A DNA stretch of 40,982 bases from Candidatus Binatia bacterium (GTDB lineage: Bacteria; Desulfobacterota; Binatia; Bin18), in assembly GCA_025057295.1 (NCBI GenBank), contig JANWXO010000004.1:1-40982 (forward strand). Reading direction: 5' to 3'. The position numbers were made by a program, and so were the translations under genes. Positions 1 through 40,982 of the stretch are shown in pieces. The notes under the pieces were generated by a model. The model had not been told where the DNA came from, made no database searches, and saw nothing but the letters and a program-made list of their open reading frames with translations. Positions within the stretch are counted from its first letter, which is position 1; each line of letters begins with the position of its first letter.

Positions 1-2719
1 TCTCCGCCGCAGTTTCCAGGCATGTCGCGTACCATCGCGTTACTTTGTCTCGAAGCCGTTCATCCGACCTGAGGCGTTCGAGGGGAGCCTCAGCAGGTAT
101 GGCATCGGAGAGTAAATTCTTCCACTCTCCCACGGTCAGTTGTTCCATTCGGGTGCGGAGACCGACCGGGTTGACAAGCCAGTCGCGGACGGCGTCCTTG
201 TCGTTTTCAAAGACATCGAGGTCTACGACGGGCAGGAGATCCCCTATGGCTTGCTCGGTTTTCTTCTCTGGCAGCCAAAGTTTGGCGAGAGGTATGTTTT
301 CTTTTCTTCCACCCCGCGTTGGCAGGCGTAGGAGCTCGCGGATTTCCCACCACCACTTCGCATCTATCTGCCATGGCCTATCGTATTGTTCTCGGCTTAA
401 CCTTCCCTCGGCACGAATTTTGGCACGGCAGCAGTAGTAGGTCTCCCAGTTCTTCGCTATCAAACGAATAAGCAAGGGAGCATGGGCGCTGTCGATATCC
501 TTTATCGCAAGATGGTCCAGGGTAGAGACTGCCTCAACTTTGCTGACCCTTCGACCCGAAGGATCTTTTTCTTTGTCCAGATATCCCTTCCACTGGTCAC
601 ATCCTTGTGGTAATTGCCCCAACGCGGTGTTTCTCGACTGCTCCACAATCCTTGGACACTCAGCAACACCAAGCCACTTCAAGACCCCGCGCAACTTTTC
701 AGCATCGCCAAGCTTCTCATCTCTTGCAACCCACGGTACTCCTCGGATGCCATCATAGAGCTTAGCAAGCAAATCGTTTCCCCATTCGCAGCCGAAGTAA
801 GCTTTACCAGCCTCTGTCCAGGTTGCTCCGCCCGCCTGTTGCGCAAGCGGCACGGGACACCGCTTGAGCTCGTCTGTGACTTTAACCGTCTCATACCAAT
901 CCTGCTCCAAAATGAAACGTAGAAAGCGCTGCGGATCGCCTTGTTTGTCTGCCCAGTAGTTCGCAATCGCTTGACCGACAGCACGCTGAATAACATCCAC
1001 TCCAGGTTCCTTAATTCCCAGCTCTTCGACAAGCTTCTTAACCGAATCCCTCTGCCTCGCTTCACTTTGGATTCGGTCGCGGAACCAGTCCTCCACGAAG
1101 GTCAGCGGCAGCCAATCGGGCAGATTGCCTACAGCAGCATTGGGCTTCCACGTTACAATGCGATCGACAAGGTCGGATGGTTGCAAAAGCCGGTTGCCAA
1201 CAGGAATTATTGGCAAGTTTTTCGCTTGTTCTACTCGCTTCTTGTGTTCTTCGCCATATGGTTTCGCGCCTACCCAAGCAGCAAGCCACTCCCAACAAGT
1301 CCAGACCCATTGTGTATCGCCGGCGAGCGAGTCTGCATTCTCGGCGATAGCCGCCATCAAGGCTTGATCCCGGATTTGCTCGCAGTTCAATGCTTCAAGT
1401 GCCGTGCATGCCTCCTTGTCGTCATCGAACGAGGGGTGCAGCAGTCGATCACGGACACTTGTAGCCTTGAGCAAGGTGCTCGCCAAGTCGGCACGGACGC
1501 TGAAGGAAATAAATTTAGCCTCGCGAACGGTGAGCCGTTTCTGACCTTCGACGTCAGCAAGTCGCAAGCCTGCTCTTGCTTTTGCAGCTATGCGCTGCCA
1601 GAGGTCATCGGCAACCGGATGGGATGCTCTGTCGCCGAACGGAACAAGTAGGGCAGCATGACTGCTCGGGGATGCTGGGCAGTATGAATCGTCGACGAAG
1701 TTGCAGACATGACACGCGAGCCTGTCGGCGACCCACTCATTAAATGGACTGCTGTCTATCGGTATAATGGCTGTTCGGTCACCCTTCACCAAGAACTCGG
1801 CGTGAAGCAGCAGCCGCACGGGGCCCATCTGCTCCGTGGGATAGAAAACATGGACGGGAAGCCAGTTTGATGTCGGAATGACACAATTGCTTTCAATCGG
1901 AGCAGCGATGAGGAAGCTGACCTGGTGCTCCGACGGCCCCAGTCCCTGCAGCACCTCCTCAGGAGGTGACTCCGTGTGTTTGACTACACGCCACTGAACC
2001 GGAGTCCGTCCTCGGCTGTCGCTTAACGACCAGACACCGTCGCCGGGATTCAGGACCACCTTCAGTCCGGGGGCTGTGATTTCCCGAAGGTGCCGGAAGG
2101 CAAAGAGCGCATGTGGCGGCCACTCCCCCAGCAGTTGCTCTGCCTTCTGCTTGCCCTCAGGAGAAATGCCAGGCAGCCTGACGACCGTTCTGTATTGCGA
2201 AAAATCCCTGAGTTTCGGATCTTGCTGGTGCGCCTCATTCCATGAGATGGGAAACGGAATCCATTGGTAAGGCACATGCTCGTCATTGAGACCATTTTCG
2301 CAGAGCCACGCCCTGGTCTTCGCAAAACTGAACTCGACACCTTCGCCGTCTACCATGAGCACTTGCGGATTTTGAGAAATCTCGTACACCGACTTGAACC
2401 CTACACCTTTACGGCCTATGGTACCGGCAACCTTGTCCGAGAGATCGGTACCGCAGATGGCGCTTATGCTTTCAGGCTTCAGCCCACAACCATTGTCTGC
2501 CACATAGACAGTGTCGTCCTCGACGAGGATCAGGACCTTTGAGGCACGTGCATCATCGCTATTCTGCAAGAGCTCAAAGAGCCATCGTCCGACATGGTCT
2601 TTGGCTGCCCGATCCGCCCCGCGTGCGTCGCGGACTATTTGGTCGGGGTCGGCCTTGTAGACATTAAGGCGTTTGGTTCTGAATTGTTCGATAGCGTCTT
2701 CGAATGGTCTGTCTTTCAT
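1..2719 (-). CDS. Sacsin-like GHKL/HSP90-type ATPase domain protein, partial (C-terminus beyond left edge)
   Basis: Manual minus-strand translation from ATG at 2719 begins MKDRPFEDAIEQFRTKRLNVYKADPDQIVRDARGADRAAKDHVGRWLFELLQNSDDARASKVLILVEDDTVYVADNGCGLKPESISAICGTDLSDKVAGTIGRKGVGFKSVYEI and stays open to base 1. LFELLQNSDDA, DNGCGL and GRKGVGFKSVY match the GHKL N, G1 and G2 boxes of sacsin-like ATPases. Missing from the ORF track because no stop lies in the window. Confidence 0.85.
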   Translation of the reverse strand, partial: MKDRPFEDAIEQFRTKRLNVYKADPDQIVRDARGADRAAKDHVGRWLFELLQNSDDARASKVLILVEDDTVYVADNGCGLKPESISAICGTDLSDKVAGTIGRKGVGFKSVYEISQNPQVLMVDGEGVEFSFAKTRAWLCENGLNDEHVPYQWIPFPISWNEAHQQDPKLRDFSQYRTVVRLPGISPEGKQKAEQLLGEWPPHALFAFRHLREITAPGLKVVLNPGDGVWSLSDSRGRTPVQWRVVKHTESPPEEVLQGLGPSEHQVSFLIAAPIESNCVIPTSNWLPVHVFYPTEQMGPVRLLLHAEFLVKGDRTAIIPIDSSPFNEWVADRLACHVCNFVDDSYCPASPSSHAALLVPFGDRASHPVADDLWQRIAAKARAGLRLADVEGQKRLTVREAKFISFSVRADLASTLLKATSVRDRLLHPSFDDDKEACTALEALNCEQIRDQALMAAIAENADSLAGDTQWVWTCWEWLAAWVGAKPYGEEHKKRVEQAKNLPIIPVGNRLLQPSDLVDRIVTWKPNAAVGNLPDWLPLTFVEDWFRDRIQSEARQRDSVKKLVEELGIKEPGVDVIQRAVGQAIANYWADKQGDPQRFLRFILEQDWYETVKVTDELKRCPVPLAQQAGGATWTEAGKAYFGCEWGNDLLAKLYDGIRGVPWVARDEKLGDAEKLRGVLKWLGVAECPRIVEQSRNTALGQLPQGCDQWKGYLDKEKDPSGRRVSKVEAVSTLDHLAIKDIDSAHAPLLIRLIAKNWETYYCCRAKIRAEGRLSREQYDRPWQIDAKWWWEIRELLRLPTRGGRKENIPLAKLWLPEKKTEQAIGDLLPVVDLDVFENDKDAVRDWLVNPVGLRTRMEQLTVGEWKNLLSDAIPAEAPLERLRSDERLRDKVTRWYATCLETAAE

Positions 2720-2965
2720 GTGCAGAACACGAATTAGGCAACTCTGCAGATTACTCTTTGTAGACGCCGGGTGGCTCTCCTGGTGCATCCATCGCTCTCC
2801 GCTTTCACGGTCTTCTCCGATACCGTTGGCTAGTCTCAACCCCTGATCATGGGGGATCGCCCGCGGCCAGGTCAAGGTGCGCTCGGCGTAAAGACAGTCG
2901 GCGATGCCCAGTTCCAGACCCTGACGGCCGTTATGTGTTCCAGCGCAGATATCCCGTAGAGATCC

Positions 2966-3145: not shown

Positions 3146-3367
3146 CTAGGGTGTCGTTCGATACTCGATCTTGCGGGCATCGGTAACGCGCTTCGACGCG
3201 TCGAGCAGACGTTTCTCCTCGCTGCCCTTCGGGTAGAGAGCGAAGAGCGCGTTGGCGAGCCGGAGAAACTCCGGGCCGCTGACGTGGACGGTCTCCTCTC
3301 GCATCGGCTCGCTGAACAACGAGCCAGTGAGAATCTGTCCTTGACGTAGGAGCTGCTTCTCACTCAT
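3146..3367 (-). pseudogene. Chimeric stub: SNF2/DUF3883-helicase-like N-terminus joined to an unrelated tail (possibly DUF1156-type C-terminus)
   Basis: MSEKQLLRQGQILTGSLFSEPMREETVHVSGPEFLRLANALFALYPKGSEEKRLLDASKRVTDARKIEYRTTP*. GQILTGSLFSEPMRxETV resembles the start of SNF2-type helicases; FLRLANALxALYPKGSEEKRLLDA looks like a different protein's C-terminal region. Confidence 0.45.
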
Positions 3368-3479
3368 CGTGGCGATTTCTTCCGCGGGAGTGTCGTATCT
3401 CGTATGTCCACTTTTTCCTTGCAAGGGCGAGCCGCTGTCGCAGCTCCCGGATGAGCGCGGGGACGTTCTCATTCTTCAC
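3360..3479 (-). pseudogene. Truncated XRE-type helix-turn-helix start (39 aa)
   Basis: GTG start; VKNENVPALIRELRQRLALARKKWTYEIRHSRGRNRHDE*. NVPALIRELRQRLxL is typical of XRE-regulator starts, then similarity stops. Confidence 0.35.
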
Positions 3480-3645: not shown

Positions 3646-3888
3646 TTACCCGCCTGCGACCGGCGGGAAAATGCTCACCGCATCCCCGTCAGCCAGCGGA
3701 CGGTCAAACTCGCGGGTCTGCTCGCCGTTGATCAGCACCATCTGTGCCAGCTCCACAGGAATATTGAGCTGACGCAGCAGGGTCGCGAGGGTCGCTCCCT
3801 CGTCGAGGGTCAGGATGGCTTTCCCACCCGAAGCTCCAGAGGGGAGATGCTTACGCAGAGTGGCAAAGAGTTTGACTTCGATTCGCAT
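3646..3888 (-). CDS. MoaD/ThiS-family sulfur carrier protein
   Basis: MRIEVKLFATLRKHLPSG...GDAVSIFPPVAGG*, 80 aa, beta-grasp-like with C-terminal GG; last gene of the AOR operon. Confidence 0.88.
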   Translation of the reverse strand: MRIEVKLFATLRKHLPSGASGGKAILTLDEGATLATLLRQLNIPVELAQMVLINGEQTREFDRPLADGDAVSIFPPVAGG

Positions 3889-3949
3889 CAGATTCTCGTC
3901 TCGTCCAGTCTTGGTCCGTCTGGACAGCCCCATGTGGCCGCCTTGATCC

Positions 3950-3991
3950 TGCGGGCGACCACCTCGGGTCTGCGGGCGACCACCTCGGGTC
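3950..3991. repeat. Perfect 21-bp tandem duplication overlapping a hairpin
   Basis: tgcgggcgaccacctcgggtc occurs at 3950-3970 and 3971-3991; gggcgacc(3974-3981)/ggtcgccc(3988-3995) form a perfect 8-bp stem. Confidence 0.9.
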
Positions 3992-3995
3992 GCCC

Positions 3996-5450
3996 CTACG
4001 TGCTCTTCCCGATCCCCGGTGTCGGGGTGGGTTTCAGCTCAGTGTACCGTGCCGGGCGTGTACCGACCAGCAGCGCGTGTGGAGCTTTGTGCCACGGTGG
4101 CGGCTGCACCCCACCCACGCGATAGGCACGGTCACGCGCGGGAGCGCCAAGCAGCGTCCGCTGAATCAATGTGTTTGCCACGCCACTGCCCACATAGGCA
4201 CGCCGCAGATCGGTCGGATGTGCGCGCACATACTTCGCCCAGGCGCCAAGGGACTGCTTCGTCTGGATCAACCCCTTTGCCATCCCGACATCGTTCAGCA
4301 GGGTGACGTCCTCGCTCGGTCCGACAAACAGGGCGCCCACCAAACGATCGTCTTCCCAGACATATTTGCGATAGAGCGGCCGCGTGGGGTTGTAGACCAC
4401 GGTCACTTCCCGTCCTGCTTCCTGCCAGCGACCAAAGCTGGCACAGTGCAGTTTGAGGACGTCGAGGACGTTCATCAGCAGGCTCCCCGGGTAGCGCACC
4501 TCTCTCCCGGCCATGTTGGCACCCGCAATCCGTCCATGATCTACCGCCGTCGGTTGAATAGCATGGATGGCCGTCCGCAATGGGCCTCCCCCTGGTGCGC
4601 CACTCAACAGGTCGGGACCTGCGGCAACATCCCCAGCGGCGTAAATGCCAGGAATGCTGGTCTGCATACGATCGTCGACGACGACCCCTTCGTCGATGGT
4701 GATCCCGGAGCCGCGCAGAAACTCCACGTTCGGCCGGATCCCCGTGGCCACAATCACCAGATCGGCGGTGAGCGTCGCTCCCGTGCTCAACGCGAGACTC
4801 AGTTTCCCGCTACCGGAACGAGCGATTTCGCGGACGTGACAGCCGGTCTGGAGTACCACCCCGCGGGCACGCAGCCACCCTTCGACCGCTTTTGCCCCTT
4901 GCGCATCGAGCATGCGCGGCAAGACGTGGTCTTCGAGTTCCACGACCGAGAGCTTCCACCCCAGCTTGGCCATGGCGTTGAGGACGATGAAGCCGATAAA
5001 ACCGGCCCCGATGAGGACCGCCTCCGGGGTCCCGTGCCCTTTGGCGATCACCGTGCGGGCATCGTCCAGCGTCCAGAATGTGTATACCCCCTCCTGGTCG
5101 ATCCCTGGGATCGGCGGACGCTGTGGTGAAGCGCCGGTGGCAATGAGGAGCGTATCGAAGGATACCATGCCACCGTCACTGAGGGTGAGCGTGCGTGCCT
5201 GGGTGTCTACTTGTTGCACACGCACCCCCAGGCGCGCTTCCACCCCCTGGCGCGCAAAATAGGCTTGGTCGCCGATCAGCACCTGCCCTTCGGCAATGTC
5301 CCGTGCCAGATAGTAGGGCAATGCCATGCGTGCGTAGGCCGGCTCGTCGGAAATGAGGGTGATCGACGCCGCCTGCCCTGCCAGCACCCGGATGGTTTCC
5401 AGAGCCGCTATCCCGGCCGGCCCGCCACCGATAATGACGTGTCGTGTCAT
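3996..5450 (-). CDS. FAD/NAD(P)-dependent pyridine nucleotide-disulfide oxidoreductase (AorC-like)
   Basis: MTRHVIIGGGPAGIAALETIRVLAG... with GxGxxG FAD motif, second nucleotide-binding motif (VLIGAGFIGFIV) and GIYAAGDVA. Confidence 0.9.
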   Translation of the reverse strand: MTRHVIIGGGPAGIAALETIRVLAGQAASITLISDEPAYARMALPYYLARDIAEGQVLIGDQAYFARQGVEARLGVRVQQVDTQARTLTLSDGGMVSFDTLLIATGASPQRPPIPGIDQEGVYTFWTLDDARTVIAKGHGTPEAVLIGAGFIGFIVLNAMAKLGWKLSVVELEDHVLPRMLDAQGAKAVEGWLRARGVVLQTGCHVREIARSGSGKLSLALSTGATLTADLVIVATGIRPNVEFLRGSGITIDEGVVVDDRMQTSIPGIYAAGDVAAGPDLLSGAPGGGPLRTAIHAIQPTAVDHGRIAGANMAGREVRYPGSLLMNVLDVLKLHCASFGRWQEAGREVTVVYNPTRPLYRKYVWEDDRLVGALFVGPSEDVTLLNDVGMAKGLIQTKQSLGAWAKYVRAHPTDLRRAYVGSGVANTLIQRTLLGAPARDRAYRVGGVQPPPWHKAPHALLVGTRPARYTELKPTPTPGIGKST

Positions 5451-5490
5451 ACGTGCCTCGCTCTGCTCGGGTCTCCAATGCTGCCCCAGG

Positions 5491-7335
5491 TCAGACAAGG
5501 CCGAGCTCTTGCAGCTTCTCCCGCGTGATCCGGCCCTCGGCATCCCACCCGCGCAGGCGGTAGTACTCGGGCAGCATCTCGCCGAGCCTGTTGACCTGCC
5601 CTTTGGCCGGTCCGGACGGCAGCGGCTCTTCCAGAATGCGCCTGGGCAGGGTGTCGTCCTTGCCGGTCAACCCGGCCCGCTCGTTCCACCAGCGCTCCAG
5701 GTTCCAGATGCGTTCGCCGATCTTGAGCAGCTCCTCCAGCGTATACTGCACTCCAGTCGCCGCAACGAGCTGCGGCAGAATCTCTTCCAAACCGATGCCA
5801 AAGGTGAGGAACTGACAGAGACCGGTGGCATCGACCGTCGCCGTGGCGTCTTGAAACAGTTTGGTGAGTTCGGCCTTCCCTTCGGTTGCCCGCGGGTCCA
5901 TCTGGCGTGGCAACCCCAGAATCTCAGCGGCGACGGTATACGCCTTGAGATGACACGCCCCTCGATTGGAGGTCGCGTAGCCGAGGCCCATCCCTTGAAT
6001 GGCCCGAGCCTCGTAGGCGGCAAACTCTTGCCCCTTGACCCCCATGAAGAGCTCCGGTCGCCCAAACTTCTCGGTCATGCGTTTCGAGCCCTCGGCCAGT
6101 TCGTGGCCGAAACCTTCGCGGTACGCCGTCTTCTCCGCCATGACGAGGAGCGCCTCGGCGCTGCCGAAGGTCAGCGGGATCTCGGTCTGTGCCAGCGAGA
6201 TCGCCCCTTTTTCGTACAGCTCCATCGCCGCCGCGACCGTCGCACCAAAACTGATGGCGTCCATGCCAAGCTCGTTGCAGAGCCAGTTGGCCTTGATCAG
6301 GGCATCGAGATCCCCTATCCCACACTGCGCTCCCAGCGCCCACGCCGCCTCATACTCCGGTCCCTCGCCGGCGATCTGCCAATTGTGCGGGTGGGTCGTC
6401 ACCATATACTTTCCCGCCGCCTCGCCCGGCAGAGCCGTCACTCGTCCACAGGCAATCGTACAGGCAAAACAGGCTTTGTTCGCGACCAGGCGGGTTTCGG
6501 TGAGCCGCTCGCCGCTGATCTCCTCGGCCCGCTCGAATACGCTCTGCTGGTGGTTGCGCGTGGGCAGCGCGCCATGTTCGTTGATCACGTTCACCAACAC
6601 TTCGGTGCCGTAAATCGGCAGTCCCTGGGAGGTGACGGGCGACTCGCGCAGCTTCACCTTCATAGCCCAATGGGCTGCGAAAAACGCGTGGGGATCGGCC
6701 AACCGCACGCCTCCGGTCCCGCGCACGGCGATGGCTTTCAACTGCTTCGATCCCATGACAGCCCCTACACCAGAGCGCCCCGCTGCCCGATGGAGGTCGT
6801 TCATAATACAGGCGAACCGCACCAGCTTTTCCCCTGCCGGCCCGATGCTGGCAACGATCGCGTCCGGCACGCCCAGCTCCTGGCGCAGGTGCTCCTCAGC
6901 CTCCCACACCGTTTTGCCCCAGAGATGGCCAGCATCACGGATTTCCACGCGATCATCGTAGATCCACAGGTAACAGGGCGTCGCTGCACGGCCTTCCACG
7001 ATGAGCAGATCGTAGCCGGCTGCCTTGAGCTCCGGTCCCCAATGGCCGCCGGAATTGGAGGTGGTGATCGCGTTCGTCAGCGGCCCCTTGGTGACCACCA
7101 TGTAACGCGCCCCGCAGGAGGCATTGGTGCCGGTCAGCGGTCCGGTGGCAAATATCAACTTGTTCTCTGGGCTCAAAGGATCGATCTGGGGGTCCACTTC
7201 GGCAAAGAGGTACCTGGCCCCCAGCCCTCGGCCCCCGATAAAATCCCGTGCCCACTCCTCCCGCAGCGGCTCTTTGCTGATCTGCCGCGTGGTGAGATTG
7301 ACCCGCAGTAGCGTACCAGTCCAGCCGTACATCAT
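5491..7335 (-). CDS. Tungsten-containing aldehyde:ferredoxin oxidoreductase (AorB-like)
   Basis: MMYGWTGTLLRVNLTTRQISKEPL...FIGGRGLGARYLF...PENKLIFATGPLTGT; CFACTIAC for the Fe-S cluster; DATGLCQF matches the DxxGLC pterin/cluster motif. Confidence 0.95.
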   Translation of the reverse strand: MMYGWTGTLLRVNLTTRQISKEPLREEWARDFIGGRGLGARYLFAEVDPQIDPLSPENKLIFATGPLTGTNASCGARYMVVTKGPLTNAITTSNSGGHWGPELKAAGYDLLIVEGRAATPCYLWIYDDRVEIRDAGHLWGKTVWEAEEHLRQELGVPDAIVASIGPAGEKLVRFACIMNDLHRAAGRSGVGAVMGSKQLKAIAVRGTGGVRLADPHAFFAAHWAMKVKLRESPVTSQGLPIYGTEVLVNVINEHGALPTRNHQQSVFERAEEISGERLTETRLVANKACFACTIACGRVTALPGEAAGKYMVTTHPHNWQIAGEGPEYEAAWALGAQCGIGDLDALIKANWLCNELGMDAISFGATVAAAMELYEKGAISLAQTEIPLTFGSAEALLVMAEKTAYREGFGHELAEGSKRMTEKFGRPELFMGVKGQEFAAYEARAIQGMGLGYATSNRGACHLKAYTVAAEILGLPRQMDPRATEGKAELTKLFQDATATVDATGLCQFLTFGIGLEEILPQLVAATGVQYTLEELLKIGERIWNLERWWNERAGLTGKDDTLPRRILEEPLPSGPAKGQVNRLGEMLPEYYRLRGWDAEGRITREKLQELGLV

Positions 7336-7817
7336 GCGCTGCCTCCTTCCTGTAGGGCCTGCACTCCGGTGCTGACTCGCTGCGCCCAAGACGCGAGCCA
7401 GTCCGGCTGCCCCATCTCCACGTACGCGATCGCCTCGGTGGGACATGCTGTGACACAGGCCGGGTCTCCGCCGCATAGGTCGCACTTGAAGGCTTTGTGC
7501 GTGTCGGGATTGTAGAACACCGTGCCATAGGGGCAGGCGATAGTGCAGACCGCACAGCCCACACAGACACTATCGAGCACGACCTTCGCACCGGTCGCAG
7601 GGTCGAGGGCGATGGCATTGACCGGACAGGCCGTCATGCACCACGCCTCGTCGCACTGGAAACAGGTATAAGGCGCATAGCTCGCCTGCTCATCGAACAC
7701 GTACACCCGGATCACCGAGCGAGAAGGTTGAAAGGTGCCGGTTTGCACGAAAGAACAGGCGAGCTCGCACTGCATGCAGCCCGTACATCTGTCGGGGATA
7801 ATCCGCAGTTGCCTCAT
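7332..7817 (-). CDS. Four-cluster [4Fe-4S] ferredoxin subunit (AorA/DmsB/HycB-like)
   Basis: 161 aa with 16 motif cysteines: CTGCMQCELAC, CFQCDEAWCMTACP, CVGCAVCTIACP, CDLCGGDPACVTACP; overlaps the AOR start. Confidence 0.93.
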   Translation of the reverse strand: MRQLRIIPDRCTGCMQCELACSFVQTGTFQPSRSVIRVYVFDEQASYAPYTCFQCDEAWCMTACPVNAIALDPATGAKVVLDSVCVGCAVCTIACPYGTVFYNPDTHKAFKCDLCGGDPACVTACPTEAIAYVEMGQPDWLASWAQRVSTGVQALQEGGSA

Positions 7818-18553: not shown

Positions 18554-19357
18554 TCAGCGCAGCTGCGCGACAAAGAACACGCGCCGGAAGGGGAAGCAGG
18601 CGCCGTACGGTCCTTCTGGATAGGCAGCGCGCAGCTTCTCCCGGTACACCTCCAGAAATTGTGCCTGACGATCGTGGTCCAACCGGCTCAGAACCGGCCG
18701 CAGAGCCGTTCCCTTCATCCACTCCAAGACTGCATCTGGTCCCATCAGGACGTGGTAATAGGTCGTTTCCCACAGGTCCACTGTGCAGCCGAGCGCGTGG
18801 AGGGTGTCGGCATACCACAGAGGCGCCTCGACGAAATACCGTTCCGTCCATCCGCCCAGTGCGCTGCGCCAGGGTTCTTGGGCAACCACTTCGGCCAGAA
18901 GACGGTGCGAAGGGGCATCGCAGTTATACGGCATCTGGACTGCCAGCACGCCGCGCGGCGCGAGGAAGCTGACGAGACGAGGGAGTAGTGTGGCGTGATG
19001 GGGAACCCAGTGCAGCGCCGCATTGGCAATGATGCGATCGAGCAGCACGTCGGGTCGCCACTGCGCGAGGTCGGCTTGCACAAACCGGAGATGTGGGTGC
19101 ACGGGTAACGCCGCGGCCTGTGCGAGCATCTCCGGCGAGTGGTCCACACCCCAAATGTGCGCCTCGGGCCAACGGGTCAGCAGGGTATAGGTTAAGTTTC
19201 CGGGGCCGCAGCCGAGATCGGCAACAGCGCGCACCTCACCGTCCGGCACGCGCGCGAGCAGCTCGAAGAAGGGGCGCGACCGTTCGCGGCTGAACCGCTG
19301 ATACTGTTGGGGGTCCCAGTGCGCTGGGCCCCGCGCCAGCGAAGCACTCTCTGCCAT
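18554..19357 (-). CDS. tam: Trans-aconitate 2-methyltransferase-like SAM methyltransferase
   Basis: WDPQQYQRFSRERSRPFFELLARVP...VADLGCGPGNLTYTLLTRWPEAHIWGVDHSPEML...NAALHWVPHH...VQMPYNCDAPSH. Confidence 0.8.
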   Translation of the reverse strand: MAESASLARGPAHWDPQQYQRFSRERSRPFFELLARVPDGEVRAVADLGCGPGNLTYTLLTRWPEAHIWGVDHSPEMLAQAAALPVHPHLRFVQADLAQWRPDVLLDRIIANAALHWVPHHATLLPRLVSFLAPRGVLAVQMPYNCDAPSHRLLAEVVAQEPWRSALGGWTERYFVEAPLWYADTLHALGCTVDLWETTYYHVLMGPDAVLEWMKGTALRPVLSRLDHDRQAQFLEVYREKLRAAYPEGPYGACFPFRRVFFVAQLR

Positions 19358-19376
19358 CTTTACCGTGCAGCGCGGT

Positions 19377-20816
19377 TTACACCGCTGGCCGCGCGAGGAT
19401 ATCACCTGCTACCCGCCGTTTCAGCCACCGGCCGTCAGACGAACTCCCCACCAATTTGCCGTGCTCGACGATGACTTTCCCGCGCAAGATCGTCATCACC
19501 GGGTACCCGGCGCACTCGAACCCCTCCCAGATACTGTAGTCGGAGTCGGCATGGAGATCTGCAAGGGTGATCGTCTTTTTCAGGTGCGGATCGAACAGCA
19601 CCAAGTCGGCGTCGCTGCCGGGCTGGATCACGCCTTTCTGAGGGTAGAGGCCAAGAAGCTTCGCAGCGTTGGTGGAGGTGATCTCTACAAACCGCTGCAG
19701 CGACATCCCCCGCTCGGCGACAAACTTGGTGTAAGTCACCGGCAGGCGGGTCTCGATGCCGTTATGGCCGCCACAGACGGTCTCGATGGTGTCGCCCCAC
19801 AACTTCGGCTTCTTGTAGGTCGTGTACTCGTCCGTCGCGGTTGTCGCTAAGCGACCGTCCATCAGCCCGGCCAAGAGTGCGTCGCGATCCTCGGGATACT
19901 TCAGGGCGGGGTAGGTGTGGATCGCTGTGCCACCCGGTTTTTTGTAATCCTCGCAGGTGAAATGCAGGTAGTTATGCAGCGCTTCGCCATAGACCGGCTG
20001 GCCCTGGCTACGGGCCTCGGCAATGGCAGCGACCCCCTCCTTGGCCGTGGTGTGGACAAAGTACACAGCGACACCGGTGTGCTTTGCCAGACGGATAATG
20101 TTGCGGAAGGCGAGGTCCTCGGACAGATTGTTATGCACCAGGTGGAGATTGTAACCTTGGGCACGACCCTCGCGTTTGAGCTTCTCCGTCATGTAGCGGA
20201 CTATTTCATCCTCCTCAGCGTGGACCGCCATGATGGCACCGTGCTTGGCAACCTCGGCAAAGATGCTCCACAGGTGACCATACGGCACGCGAATGGGGTG
20301 AAAGGTGGTGAAAATTTTAAAGCTGGCAACCCCTTCCTGGACCGCTTCCCCGATCTCGCCCACTGTTTCCGGGGCCACTGCACCGGCCAGGATATAATGG
20401 AAGGTGAAGTCGGTATAGCAATGGGTACGGAACACCTCACGCCGCCGCTCCAATACCTGCATGATCGAGCTGCGCTCGCCCCCCTCGAGTGCCCTCAGAC
20501 TCAGGTCACCGGCGAAATCGACGATCGTCGTCACCCCGCCGAAGGCAGCGGCACGGCTGGCCGCCTCCGGCGGTTGGGTCATGACCTCAGGGAGCCCCGT
20601 CCATTGTTGGGGGACGGGGATACCGATGTGGGCGTGAGGCTCGATGCCGCCGGGCATCACGATCTTGCCGCGCGCATCGATGATGCGCCCTGCCTCCGCC
20701 GCCAGCGTGCCCGGCCAGCCCACGGCCACAATCTTCTCACCCTGGATGCCGACGTCCATTTCTGCGACCGTGTGAGGCGTGACGACCTGTCCCCCTTTAA
20801 TCAACAGATCGAACAT
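19377..20816 (-). CDS. Dihydropyrimidinase/hydantoinase family amidohydrolase
   Basis: MFDLLIKGGQVVTPHTVAEMDVGIQGEKIVAVG...IMPGGIEPHAHIGIPVP-like N-terminus; GFTTIVDFA-like GVTTIVDFAGD, ASFKIF, YPQKGVIQPGSDADLVLFDP. Confidence 0.9.
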   Translation of the reverse strand: MFDLLIKGGQVVTPHTVAEMDVGIQGEKIVAVGWPGTLAAEAGRIIDARGKIVMPGGIEPHAHIGIPVPQQWTGLPEVMTQPPEAASRAAAFGGVTTIVDFAGDLSLRALEGGERSSIMQVLERRREVFRTHCYTDFTFHYILAGAVAPETVGEIGEAVQEGVASFKIFTTFHPIRVPYGHLWSIFAEVAKHGAIMAVHAEEDEIVRYMTEKLKREGRAQGYNLHLVHNNLSEDLAFRNIIRLAKHTGVAVYFVHTTAKEGVAAIAEARSQGQPVYGEALHNYLHFTCEDYKKPGGTAIHTYPALKYPEDRDALLAGLMDGRLATTATDEYTTYKKPKLWGDTIETVCGGHNGIETRLPVTYTKFVAERGMSLQRFVEITSTNAAKLLGLYPQKGVIQPGSDADLVLFDPHLKKTITLADLHADSDYSIWEGFECAGYPVMTILRGKVIVEHGKLVGSSSDGRWLKRRVAGDILARPAV

Positions 20817-30462: not shown

Positions 30463-30753
30463 CTACTTTTTCGTTGGGCCGAGAATCGCCTCTTTCAGGG
30501 CTTTCGACGCCGTAAAGGCAACTTTCTTGCGGGCGGGAATTTTGATCGGCTCCCCAGTTTGAGGATTGCGCCCGGTGCGGGCTTTTGTCTGGCGCAGCCG
30601 GAAGGTGCCCAAGTTAGGAATCTTCAATACTTTCTCTTTCTTGACGGTCTTGCCGATGAAATCGATGAGGGCGTTGAGATTCTCATCCGCCTGCCGGCTA
30701 GAGATTCCCCCCCAGCTCTCGGCCAATTTCTTTACCATCTCGGACTTCGTCAT
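30463..30753 (-). CDS. HU/IHF family DNA-binding protein
   Basis: MTKSEMVKKLAESWGGISSRQADENLNALIDFIGKTVKKEKVLKIPNLGTFRLRQTKARTGRNPQTGEPIKIPARKKVAFTASKALKEAI; strong aaggaggt SD upstream. Confidence 0.95.
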   Translation of the reverse strand: MTKSEMVKKLAESWGGISSRQADENLNALIDFIGKTVKKEKVLKIPNLGTFRLRQTKARTGRNPQTGEPIKIPARKKVAFTASKALKEAILGPTKK

Positions 30754-30847
30754 AGTACCAACCTCCTTCTCTGTGATGGAATTTCTCACTTAGCCTACCG
30801 AGGAAGAGGAGACCGTGCGTCAGCTTTGCGGTGCCTCGCCTCCTAGC

Positions 30848-30988
30848 TTACTCCTCCTCCCATTCCTCTTCGTCATCCAGTTCCTCGTCCTCCTCCCAGT
30901 CCTCGTCGTCTAGTTCCTCCTCCTCCCAGTCCTCGTCCTCTTCCTGTAGGTCGAGCCAGAGGGGGGTTGCGTACGGTGTTGTCATCAT
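30848..30988 (-). CDS. Predicted acidic microprotein (46 aa), not in ORF track
   Basis: Manual translation MMTTPYATPLWLDLQEEDEDWEEEELDDEDWEEDEELDDEEEWEEE*; 27 of 46 residues D/E, no K/R, W-repeat pattern; gaggg-like SD; same strand and 94 bp upstream of HU. Confidence 0.55.
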   Translation of the reverse strand: MMTTPYATPLWLDLQEEDEDWEEEELDDEDWEEDEELDDEEEWEEE

Positions 30989-31081: not shown

Positions 31082-32974
31082 TTATGCAACCGTTATGATC
31101 GGCACCGCAGGCGTGGTGCGCCGGGTGCCCATGCGCTCGTGACCGGCGAGGTAGAAATTCCTCGCCTCTTCATCAGTGACGACTTGGCGCTTCGTTTGTG
31201 GATCATACAATTTCCACACACCCCCGAGCATGGGATGGCGACCACGGCGATAACTATAGGCCCAGTAAATAAACTCCCGCGTCATACTGTCCCGCGCTTC
31301 CCAGTTCAGCCCCCGCCCTCCGGAGAAGGTCAGCGTATTTTTGATCACCCGCCACGGGGAGTAGAAAGTCGTATAGGCATCGCGATAGGCTTGGTAGATC
31401 TCCTCCGCCGTCATGGTGGGATGGTGGGCGACCACGTGATCGGAGTCGTACCAGTTAAAATCCCAATCACGAATCATGCCCTCTGCGACTGCTTTGATGT
31501 GATCCTCAGTGCCGGGCAGCGGGGTGACGATGAAGAAGGACGCCAGATCGACACCCACCTCGATCAGATCGAGTGCGGCCTGACGCCCACACTCCGGGGT
31601 GTCGAAGGGGAAGCCGATCATATACCCACAGTGCACGGCAATGCCGGCCCGATGCCAGTTATCGACCACGCGCCGGTACTTTTCCAGTACCCGCCGCTTG
31701 GCCTCTGCCAGGTCGATATTGCGCTCACGCCGATCGGTATTCTGGAACTTGGTGGCAGCGACCAGGTTTTGTGGATTGAAGGACTCAAAGCCGACAAAAG
31801 CACAGTACCCTCCAGCTTCCTTCACCAACTCCACAAAACGCCGGCTGCGCTGGTGCTTGCTGCTCTCCACCTCTCCCGGACGCAGGTCGGCATACCCAGC
31901 GGCATCAATGTCTACCTGCATCATAAAATTGATGTTGCGCCCCTGACGGCGCAGCTCTGCCATCCCCAAGAGCAGGGGCTCCCATTGTGGGCTGCGGAAA
32001 AAATCATCGTCGACCAAAAACAGCGTGTCGATGCCATGGTAATCGGCGGCGTCGCGAATCCAGTCAATGGCAAACTGCGGGTCGCGCGCCCGCATGGTCC
32101 TGCCCATGACATTTTTCACGCTACAATAGGAACAGGTAAACGGACAACCGCGGGAGGTGTCCAAGGTGGTCATCGTGGTATTGGCGAACCGTTTTAAATA
32201 TCGGTCATCGATCGCCGGCAACTGCACCGAGTCGATCACCGGCACCATGATCTCGCCAGTGCCGGTCTTGGCACGAATACCAGAGGTGACGCTGTAGTGC
32301 AGCTTGAGTTCCCCCCGCAGGTAATCGTCCAGTATCTGGACCCAGGTGTTCTCTGCCTCCCCAACCACCGTCGTCACCCCACAGCTATTCAAGAACTCAC
32401 ACGACTCTGGATAGCCGCTCACATGAAAGCCACCCATCAGCACGGGAAACCCTGCAGCGACAAATTGCAAGGCGAGGTCGCGGCCACGCGGGTATTGGTT
32501 GGTCTGCACGCCCGCTAAACCGATAAGCACCTCCACGCCATCCTCTCTGGCTTTCCTGCGAATGGTATCGATGGTGTCACGACTGATCGGTCCATCCACC
32601 ATCTCGTCCCACAGGACCGTCTCGATAAACACATTATGGTTGGCCCGTAAGCGATTGTACTCCTCGTTGAGGGCGGCTAGGGCAGTCAGCGTATTGTTCG
32701 GCAATACCCCCTTCCAAAAGTACAGGACGTAGCCCTGTTCGTCATATTTCGACGGCTTAATAAAATAGACCCGTACGGTGCGGCACGGGGTGGCCGTGCG
32801 ACTCGGCCTGCGTGCTACAGGCAAGGTCGAGAGCGTGCACCCCTGCTGGTCCGTATCTGCGGCGAGCATGGAACCTGCCGAGGCAAGTGCTCGTGCCTCA
32901 CGCCATGCCCTCCGCCACCGCGGACTCTTGCCCGGAGTCTCTCTTTGCTCACTGTCTGCAACCACATTCTTCAT
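31082..32974 (-). CDS. B12-binding-domain radical SAM protein
   Basis: TLDTSRGCPFTCSYCSVKNVMGRTMRARDP (CxxxCxxC); upstream GLAGVQTNQYPRGRDLALQFVAAGFPVLMGGFHVSGYPE resembles a B12-binding Rossmann domain. Confidence 0.88.
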   Translation of the reverse strand: MKNVVADSEQRETPGKSPRWRRAWREARALASAGSMLAADTDQQGCTLSTLPVARRPSRTATPCRTVRVYFIKPSKYDEQGYVLYFWKGVLPNNTLTALAALNEEYNRLRANHNVFIETVLWDEMVDGPISRDTIDTIRRKAREDGVEVLIGLAGVQTNQYPRGRDLALQFVAAGFPVLMGGFHVSGYPESCEFLNSCGVTTVVGEAENTWVQILDDYLRGELKLHYSVTSGIRAKTGTGEIMVPVIDSVQLPAIDDRYLKRFANTTMTTLDTSRGCPFTCSYCSVKNVMGRTMRARDPQFAIDWIRDAADYHGIDTLFLVDDDFFRSPQWEPLLLGMAELRRQGRNINFMMQVDIDAAGYADLRPGEVESSKHQRSRRFVELVKEAGGYCAFVGFESFNPQNLVAATKFQNTDRRERNIDLAEAKRRVLEKYRRVVDNWHRAGIAVHCGYMIGFPFDTPECGRQAALDLIEVGVDLASFFIVTPLPGTEDHIKAVAEGMIRDWDFNWYDSDHVVAHHPTMTAEEIYQAYRDAYTTFYSPWRVIKNTLTFSGGRGLNWEARDSMTREFIYWAYSYRRGRHPMLGGVWKLYDPQTKRQVVTDEEARNFYLAGHERMGTRRTTPAVPIITVA

Positions 32975-33034
32975 GGTTCTCCTTCCGGCCACGGGCCGAC
33001 TTGTAGCTGTCAGTCCGACAAATGTCAATAAAAT

Positions 33035-39903: not shown

Positions 39904-40982
39904 TTAAAACATTCCTGAGATTTTCCCGCTGGCGTCCATATGCATGTTGATCGCTGCGGGCTTAGCCGGCAGGCCGGGCATGGTCAGCATCTCGCCGGTC
40001 AGCGGCACGCAGAAGCCCGCCCCCGCCGACAGGCGAATCTCACGGACCGTCAGGGTAAAATCGCGCGGACGGCCGTAGCGCTTCGGATCGTCGGAAAGCG
40101 ACAGCTGCGTCTTCGCCATGCAAATCGGCACGGAGCCATACCCCAAAGCTTGGATACGCTCTAAATCGGTACGGGCGCGCGGCAGCAACACGATGTCGGC
40201 AGCGCCATAAATCTTCTGGGCAATCGTCCGGATCTTGTCCTCGATCGACATGTCGAGGGGATACAGAAAACGCGGAGGAGACGCGGATCCCTGGCAGGCC
40301 TTGACGACTGCCTCGGCCAACGGCAGACCACCTTCGCCTCCCTGATTGAACACGTCGATCACGGTTGCTTCCAGGCCGAGCGCGCGGCTCTCTTCCACCA
40401 CCAGCCTGAGCTCGTCATCCGTATCGGTAGCGAAGCGATTCACCGCGACGATCGGCCGCAAGCCGAATTCACGTACGCTCTCGGCGTGCTTGGCCAGGTT
40501 GTCCATTCCCACCTTCAACGTCTTGAGGTCCGGTCGGTGAATCTCGCCCAGTGCCGTGCCCCCGTGCATCTTGAGCGCTTTGACAGTAGCGACGAGGACC
40601 ACCGCGGACGGCCACAGCCCTGCCTCGCGACACTTGATATCGAGAAATTTCTCGCCACCGAGATCGAAGCCGAAGCCAGCTTCGGTTACGACAAAATCGG
40701 CATATGCAAGCGCCAGGCGGGTAGCGAGAACACTATTGCAGCCGTGGGCGATATTGCCGAACGGGCCGCCGTGCACGAAGGCCGGGACCCCTTCGACCGT
40801 TTGCACCAGGTTCGGCTTGAGGGCGTCTTTGAGAATGATCGCCATCGCTTCCGGCGCCTGGACCTCACGCGCAGTCACCACGTTCCCCTTATGGGAGAAA
40901 CCAAGAACGATACGGGACAGTCGCTCGACCAAGTCCGTCGGTCCGTTCGCCAGGCAAAGGATCGCCATCACCTCGGAGGCGG
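39904..40982 (-). CDS. fhs: Formate-tetrahydrofolate ligase, partial (N-terminus beyond right edge)
   Basis: SEVMAILCLANGPTDLVERLSRIVLGFSHKGNVVTAREVQAPEAMAIILKDALKPNLVQTVEGVPAFVHGGPFGNIAHGCNSVLAT...; frame open to window end. Confidence 0.95.
   Translation of the reverse strand, partial: ASEVMAILCLANGPTDLVERLSRIVLGFSHKGNVVTAREVQAPEAMAIILKDALKPNLVQTVEGVPAFVHGGPFGNIAHGCNSVLATRLALAYADFVVTEAGFGFDLGGEKFLDIKCREAGLWPSAVVLVATVKALKMHGGTALGEIHRPDLKTLKVGMDNLAKHAESVREFGLRPIVAVNRFATDTDDELRLVVEESRALGLEATVIDVFNQGGEGGLPLAEAVVKACQGSASPPRFLYPLDMSIEDKIRTIAQKIYGAADIVLLPRARTDLERIQALGYGSVPICMAKTQLSLSDDPKRYGRPRDFTLTVREIRLSAGAGFCVPLTGEMLTMPGLPAKPAAINMHMDASGKISGMF

Follow-up and report, generated by a model that had tools for sequence, protein, structure and literature searches.

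A candidate Tiamat-family GHKL ATPase-nuclease gene split between two contig ends

The protein listed as TmtA in PADLOC is, we presume, the Tiamat protein, which reportedly originates from a 2022 screen by Millman and co-workers. A review cites Tiamat with that 2022 source (PMC12926258), and its mechanism has been recorded as unknown (PMC10482375). Among tested proteins, the nearest in layout is VcSduA, a Shedu protein with a GHKL N-terminus, in which either E27A or K557A alone abolishes defence (PMC12137116). Our literature searches based on sacsin and DUF3883 returned no study of such a protein as a phage-defence effector, and no experiment was found on any close homologue. Here, these systems are compared with a gene located at the edge of contig C424, which in its entirety (40,982 bases) constitutes the window analyzed and belongs to a genome of 479 contigs that is 80% complete.

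The split gene and its second half

The minus strand of the window carries a stop-free frame of 906 codons, running from ATG 2719 to base 2. A sequence-only reading of this DNA had placed a GHKL frame of at least 906 codons at the window edge, and this was confirmed: the frame runs off the contig end and, because base 1 is that end, it is cut by the assembly rather than by a stop. Counted from an upstream TTG at 2875, the same frame comprises 958 codons. ATG 2719 is probably the true start and is favoured because the aligned Met starts the closest homologue (MKNGLIEKAIEE). One weak promoter-like site was found in a consensus scan upstream of the start, compared with 0.3 expected, which provides no evidence of function. 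Three listed plus-strand ORFs, rightly dismissed as spurious in the sequence-only reading, all lie antisense to the GHKL frame (Table 1). The 906-codon frame matched NCBIfam P_loop_sacsin (4e-19) and Pfam HATPase_c_3 (7e-6), both above cut-off, and the window half alone matched PADLOC TmtA (8e-54).

Searching the same genome for DUF3883/NOV_C gave a single match, in a frame of 463 codons still open where contig C222 ends on the right. The last 12 bases of C222 are the first 12 of the window (TCTCCGCCGCAG), and the frame is kept across them. Rather than meeting a stop or frameshift just left of base 1, the frame goes on leftward into the minus strand of C222, which supplies the remaining 460 codons and a stop ending at C222:44360. 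The product is a protein of 1,366 residues, in which the residues of the C222 fragment are numbered as fragment residue + 903.

A 12-base overlap is on its own modest evidence, and the join was accepted because four further facts agree with it. The two halves cover complementary stretches of the best TmtA profile, 9-879 for the window half and 916-1139 for the C222 half. The ortholog in genome G187 is a full-length single ORF of 1,376 aa on one contig, and was matched over residues 7-1347 in one stretch (768 bits). The closest homologue, at locus L093 (Planctomycetota MohnsGC08, VRUG01000048.1), shows 73.9% DNA identity over 4,086 aligned positions. Its alignment crosses the junction with no indel, and the flanking blocks of 300 columns are ~72% and 74% identical; compared with the window gene, this copy carries two frameshifts. 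Finally, the halves resemble each other in codon use, with a third-position GC of 0.59 and 0.63. Two separate TmtA genes, both truncated by contig ends, with C222 not being the continuation, might be suspected from an overlap shorter than the usual assembler k-mer overlap and from the fragmentation of the genome into so many contigs. Such a coincidence is very improbable, given the exact in-frame overlap, the even identity through the junction, the similar GC content of both halves, and a genome in which the only two TmtA matches are those on C424 and C222, over the complementary profile positions 9-808 and 916-1139. The two frames are therefore almost certainly one gene of 1,366 aa, which in this genome spans two contigs instead of one. 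The procedure provides a simple route for recovering defence genes split at contig ends.

Table 1. Positions of features in the window and at related loci (window positions unless a contig or locus is named)
Feature	Position	Strand	Remarks
N-terminal 906 codons of the 1,366-aa TmtA-family protein	1..2719	-	GHKL ATPase and long helical middle region; open frame, P_loop_sacsin, TmtA and fold matches; gene continues beyond contig end
TCTCCGCCGCAG	1..12	.	Exact 12-base overlap with right end of C222 (45742-45753); exact ends, frame preserved
Plus-strand ORFs	45-437, 614-922, 941-1651	+	Antisense to GHKL frame
GHKL motif III / ATP-lid glycines GRKGVGFKSVY, residues 102-112	2384..2416	-	G99 to K109 nearly invariant in alignment A2
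GHKL motif II DNGCGL, residues 75-80	2480..2497	-	D75, G79 nearly invariant in alignment A2
GHKL motif I ELLQNSDDA, residues 49-57	2549..2575	-	Predicted catalytic Glu49 and Mg-binding Asn53
Promoter-like site TTGACC-18-CATGAT, weak	2846..2875	-	Consensus scan; sole one upstream of start
108-aa ORF	3146-3472
Aldehyde:ferredoxin oxidoreductase operon	3646-7817		FeS protein, AOR, FAD oxidoreductase, MoaD/ThiS
Generic methyltransferase	18557-19405		Broad PADLOC model
HU-like gene	30463-30789
Three 33-nt tandem repeats	30848-30947
Radical-SAM protein	31085-33028		Broad PADLOC model
Formate-tetrahydrofolate ligase gene	39907-40980		Cut by right contig end
attC-like sites in L093	1487-1600, 2815-2928, 7094-7151, 7924-8038		Flank same-strand genes; home-made pattern
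TmtA gene between attC-like sites	L093:2815-7151
Sister-clade cas3-adjacent loci	L073:8245-19994; L090:237-11924; L095:261-4390; L103:3-6526		Gene directly upstream of cas3
G187 ortholog	L073:8245-12372		Single ORF
G485 gene	L090:237-4329		Two overlapping frames
L086 ortholog	L086:365-4414		Full-length, on a single contig
Truncated copy in G279	L095:261-833
Distant TmtA relative in G249	L072:864-10748
Distant GHKL relative on Arthrobacter plasmid p2MP	L015:4716-13056		In operon

Family, domains and proposed function of the protein

The joined protein matched the PADLOC TmtA profile PDLC03964 with 1.5e-75 over profile positions 9-1139 of 1538, where the C-terminal match ends, and its residues 44-1296 aligned to positions 42-1254 of the 1302-position TmtA profile PDLC03972. 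Assigned by profile E-value and coverage instead of PADLOC's own thresholds, the protein is very likely a TmtA-family GHKL-nuclease.

The GHKL ATPase occupies residues ~1-320, where E49, N53, D75, G79 and the GTIGRKGVGFK stretch are conserved among orthologs. All three motifs named in the sequence-only reading were found in the frame (Table 1). Within motif I, E49, L50, L51, Q52, N53, D56 and A57 are invariant in alignment A1, and E49 and N53 are kept in 7 of the 7 rows of alignment A2 that reach this stretch. An AlphaFold2 model of the 906 residues had a mean pLDDT of 78, and in Foldseek it matched Hsp90, SMCHD1, MORC4 and sacsin SR1. Together with the motifs, these GHKL folds bear out the proposed large sacsin-like ATPase. 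A PDB sequence search with the N half gave a marginal sacsin match only. The two halves, folded separately, had pTM values of 0.58 and 0.45, indicating moderate model confidence.

The ATPase is followed by a long, mostly helical middle region (residues ~320-1120), a low-complexity linker, and a C-terminal DUF3883 domain (residues ~1228-1356), for which PF13020 (NOV_C) scored 30.8 bits in the C half against a cut-off of 22.1. In its PGFD...IEVK motif, D1264, E1277 and K1279 are invariant in the nine orthologs aligned. The model of the C-terminal part is confident except for the linker, and its fold matches were archaeal Hjc resolvases, SPARDA complexes and EcoRV. DUF3883 is thus a predicted nuclease with a PD-(D/E)XK fold, and it has been termed a novel restriction-endonuclease (REase) domain in a published analysis (PMC3710099). 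PDB sequence matches of the C half, mostly staphylococcal nuclease (0.09-0.44), lay outside DUF3883 and were taken as chance. Pairwise dN/dS was 0.18-0.29 with L093; with L085/L086, for which dS approaches saturation, it was 0.13-0.16. Both results point to a protein maintained by purifying selection.

We consider it fairly probable that the gene encodes a one-gene TmtA/Tiamat-family effector, which would defend through nuclease cleavage gated by a GHKL clamp. A role in phage defence is suggested by the membership in the TmtA/Tiamat family, and gating of the nuclease by analogy with the layout of VcSduA, in which either mutation is sufficient for loss of defence. As in other GHKL machines, the ATPase domains would dimerise, and a phage- or plasmid-derived cue may then engage the middle region. 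ATP-driven closure of the clamp would release or position the DUF3883 nuclease, which could cut either the DNA of the invader or, in an abortive response, that of the host.

Genomic contexts of the gene and its relatives

On the right side of the window gene lies an aldehyde:ferredoxin oxidoreductase operon that is shared by seven genomes of the same family, with DNA identities of ~68-78%. These seven genomes did not yield a clean empty site, because synteny ends after the last gene of the operon and the C222 genes do not follow. A 108-aa ORF was without a family or plasmid match. On the left side, the next gene on C222 encodes an alpha/beta hydrolase, and the other C222 genes have an ordinary metabolic look, with start sequences judged by eye. 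A PADLOC scan of the mostly unnamed neighbours returned only a generic methyltransferase and a radical-SAM protein, neither of which was read as a defence gene since the matched models are broad. Elsewhere in the window, three tandem repeats adjoin an HU-like gene, and a formate-tetrahydrofolate ligase gene is cut by the right contig end (Table 1).

The defence island proposed in the sequence-only reading was not found among the neighbours examined on both sides, a subset of the genes present, which are metabolic. Its suggestion that the left side may hold an effector or an intact defence locus held in part: C222 contributes a plausible DUF3883 PD-(D/E)XK nuclease, and the island is unsupported. 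The GC3 of the gene is 0.60, compared with 0.73 +/- 0.04 in 19 neighbours (z = -3.1). Given the metabolic neighbours and this foreign-looking GC3, the window gene is a lone and probably acquired gene. No partner gene was recognised on either side, in keeping with the single-gene definition of TmtA, and homology to L093 is confined to the gene itself. The locus appears to be a single gene that moves as a stand-alone unit, outside any larger island here. No CRISPR-like repeat array was present in the window or the last 20 kb of C222, no cas genes were seen beside the window copy, and Cas7e was absent from the 80%-complete genome. Integron integrase matches in this genome were all below cut-off.

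A scan of genome contigs with a single protein as query detected no relative, and an alignment-based scan detected 11, with 34-65% identity. Their bins are named as Planctomycetota, Nitrospinota, Glassbacteria, Micavibrio, Bacterium HR15, Deltaproteobacteria and Syntrophobacterales. In the tree, the window gene groups with L085, L086, L087, L091 and L093 (SH-aLRT 100), with unsure inner branching. Of 145 genomes, 10 had any match; one of these is the genome of the window, and the matches in the other nine were weak. In G249, a distant TmtA relative lies beside DNA methyltransferase-like and OLD-like ATPase genes, a defence-type neighbourhood. The Arthrobacter plasmid p2MP carries a distant GHKL relative in an operon with genes for a C5-methyltransferase, an ATP-binding protein, a PD-(D/E)XK protein and a Z1 protein.

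The same architecture could also serve a restriction/epigenetic or DNA-repair ATPase-nuclease, acting by paraMORC-like DNA looping and cleavage and not triggered by phage. GHKL and nuclease modules do occur in restriction-modification operons (PMC2292703), and methyltransferases adjoin the distant relatives in p2MP and G249. We regard this function as unlikely for the window protein: no DNA methyltransferase gene adjoins the window copy, and none was recognised next to those solo relatives that were examined. A nuclease directed at unmodified DNA also fits poorly with transfer as a lone gene to foreign surroundings, unless its activity is under tight control.

The L093 copy differs in its setting. 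Four attC-like sites were identified in L093, compared with 0.28 expected from shuffles; two adjacent sites bracket the TmtA gene. An integron integrase (IntI) above cut-off was found in the same bin on another contig. We strongly infer that the L093 gene is an integron cassette, a call of our own rather than the verdict of a tool, since a simple pattern written for this analysis served to locate the sites. At ~4.2 kb, the element would be very large for a cassette. No attC-like sites were found in the window or at nine other ortholog loci.

In a sister clade, the gene is placed directly upstream of cas3 at four loci, three of type I-E and one of type I-C, all four in one family (f23). The full type I-E effector gene set, cas3 to cas6e, starts ~35-55 bases after the gene in G187 and G485. 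The G485 gene is split into two overlapping frames, which may represent a frameshift, an assembly error or a real split. In G279 (locus L095), a truncated copy precedes cas3 and cse1; it ends after ~172 residues and consists of the GHKL domain alone, with the nuclease part absent. In G526, the start of cas3 lies within the C-terminal end of the gene, and cas5c and cas8c of type I-C come after it. A VIT/VWA gene lies upstream of TmtA at 4 of 4 loci, in G526 on the contig with the N-terminal part. The cas3 association is real in the four loci and could represent an inherited neighbourhood instead of function; the change of CRISPR type among loci argues mildly for function. The window gene itself was rejected as a CRISPR-Cas accessory, since adjacency to cas genes was seen only in the sister clade.

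The protein could alternatively be a housekeeping, chaperone-like analogue of sacsin or NO VEIN with no defence role. NO VEIN is a eukaryotic developmental protein of plants, presumably with the same two-domain order as the window protein. Tiamat calls by detection tools include plant genes (PMC12409356), and the neighbourhood of the window gene is metabolic. The patchy distribution, the foreign GC3, the one-gene transfer with integron carriage in L093, and the cas3 adjacency in the sister clade all argue against a housekeeping function, which we judge even less likely than the restriction or repair function. The defence effector accordingly remains our preferred reading. More speculatively, TmtA-family GHKL-nucleases may be mobile effector cassettes that can be connected to various triggers, working alone, in an integron array, or together with type I CRISPR-Cas as an additional effector or regulator, a generalisation that we put forward as possible and on balance doubtful. 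If it is true, the ATPase-only copy in L095 would suggest that coupling to Cas3/Cascade is the task of the GHKL part. The integron-cassette and cas3-adjacent (type I-E and I-C) contexts look new, as our literature searches found no report of either placement for TmtA genes; they hint at the route by which the gene spreads and at its possible coupling partners.

Comparison with known systems

Sacsin SR repeats, Hsp90, MORC and SMCHD1 share the GHKL fold and motifs with the window protein, which carries a sacsin-type NCBIfam domain. It differs from animal sacsin in having one repeat and a C-terminal nuclease, and membership in the sacsins was rejected on the basis of a single GHKL match and the absence of DnaJ and HEPN in Pfam scans of both halves. 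The likeness to plant NO VEIN, the source of the Pfam name NOV_C, lies in the C-terminal NOV_C domain. VcSduA (paraMORC3-like) likewise combines a GHKL ATPase, a clamp-like middle and a C-terminal PD-(D/E)XK domain in one protein (PMC12137116). It is much shorter, with the catalytic lysine at K557 compared with K1279 here, and its nuclease is DUF4263, whereas that of the window protein is DUF3883. Shedu membership was rejected, as the C half matched NOV_C and weakly PDDEXK_5, with DUF4263 absent.

The closest likeness is to Tiamat/TmtA (PDLC03964-03972), with which the window protein shares the GHKL N-terminus, the large middle region and the single-gene layout; several of these profiles also include the C-terminal segment carrying DUF3883. 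Compared through profiles, the window protein is divergent, covering ~73% of the best profile in one stretch. For Tiamat, it offers a concrete model in which a GHKL clamp would gate a DUF3883 nuclease, with E49, D1264, E1277 and K1279 as the named residues.
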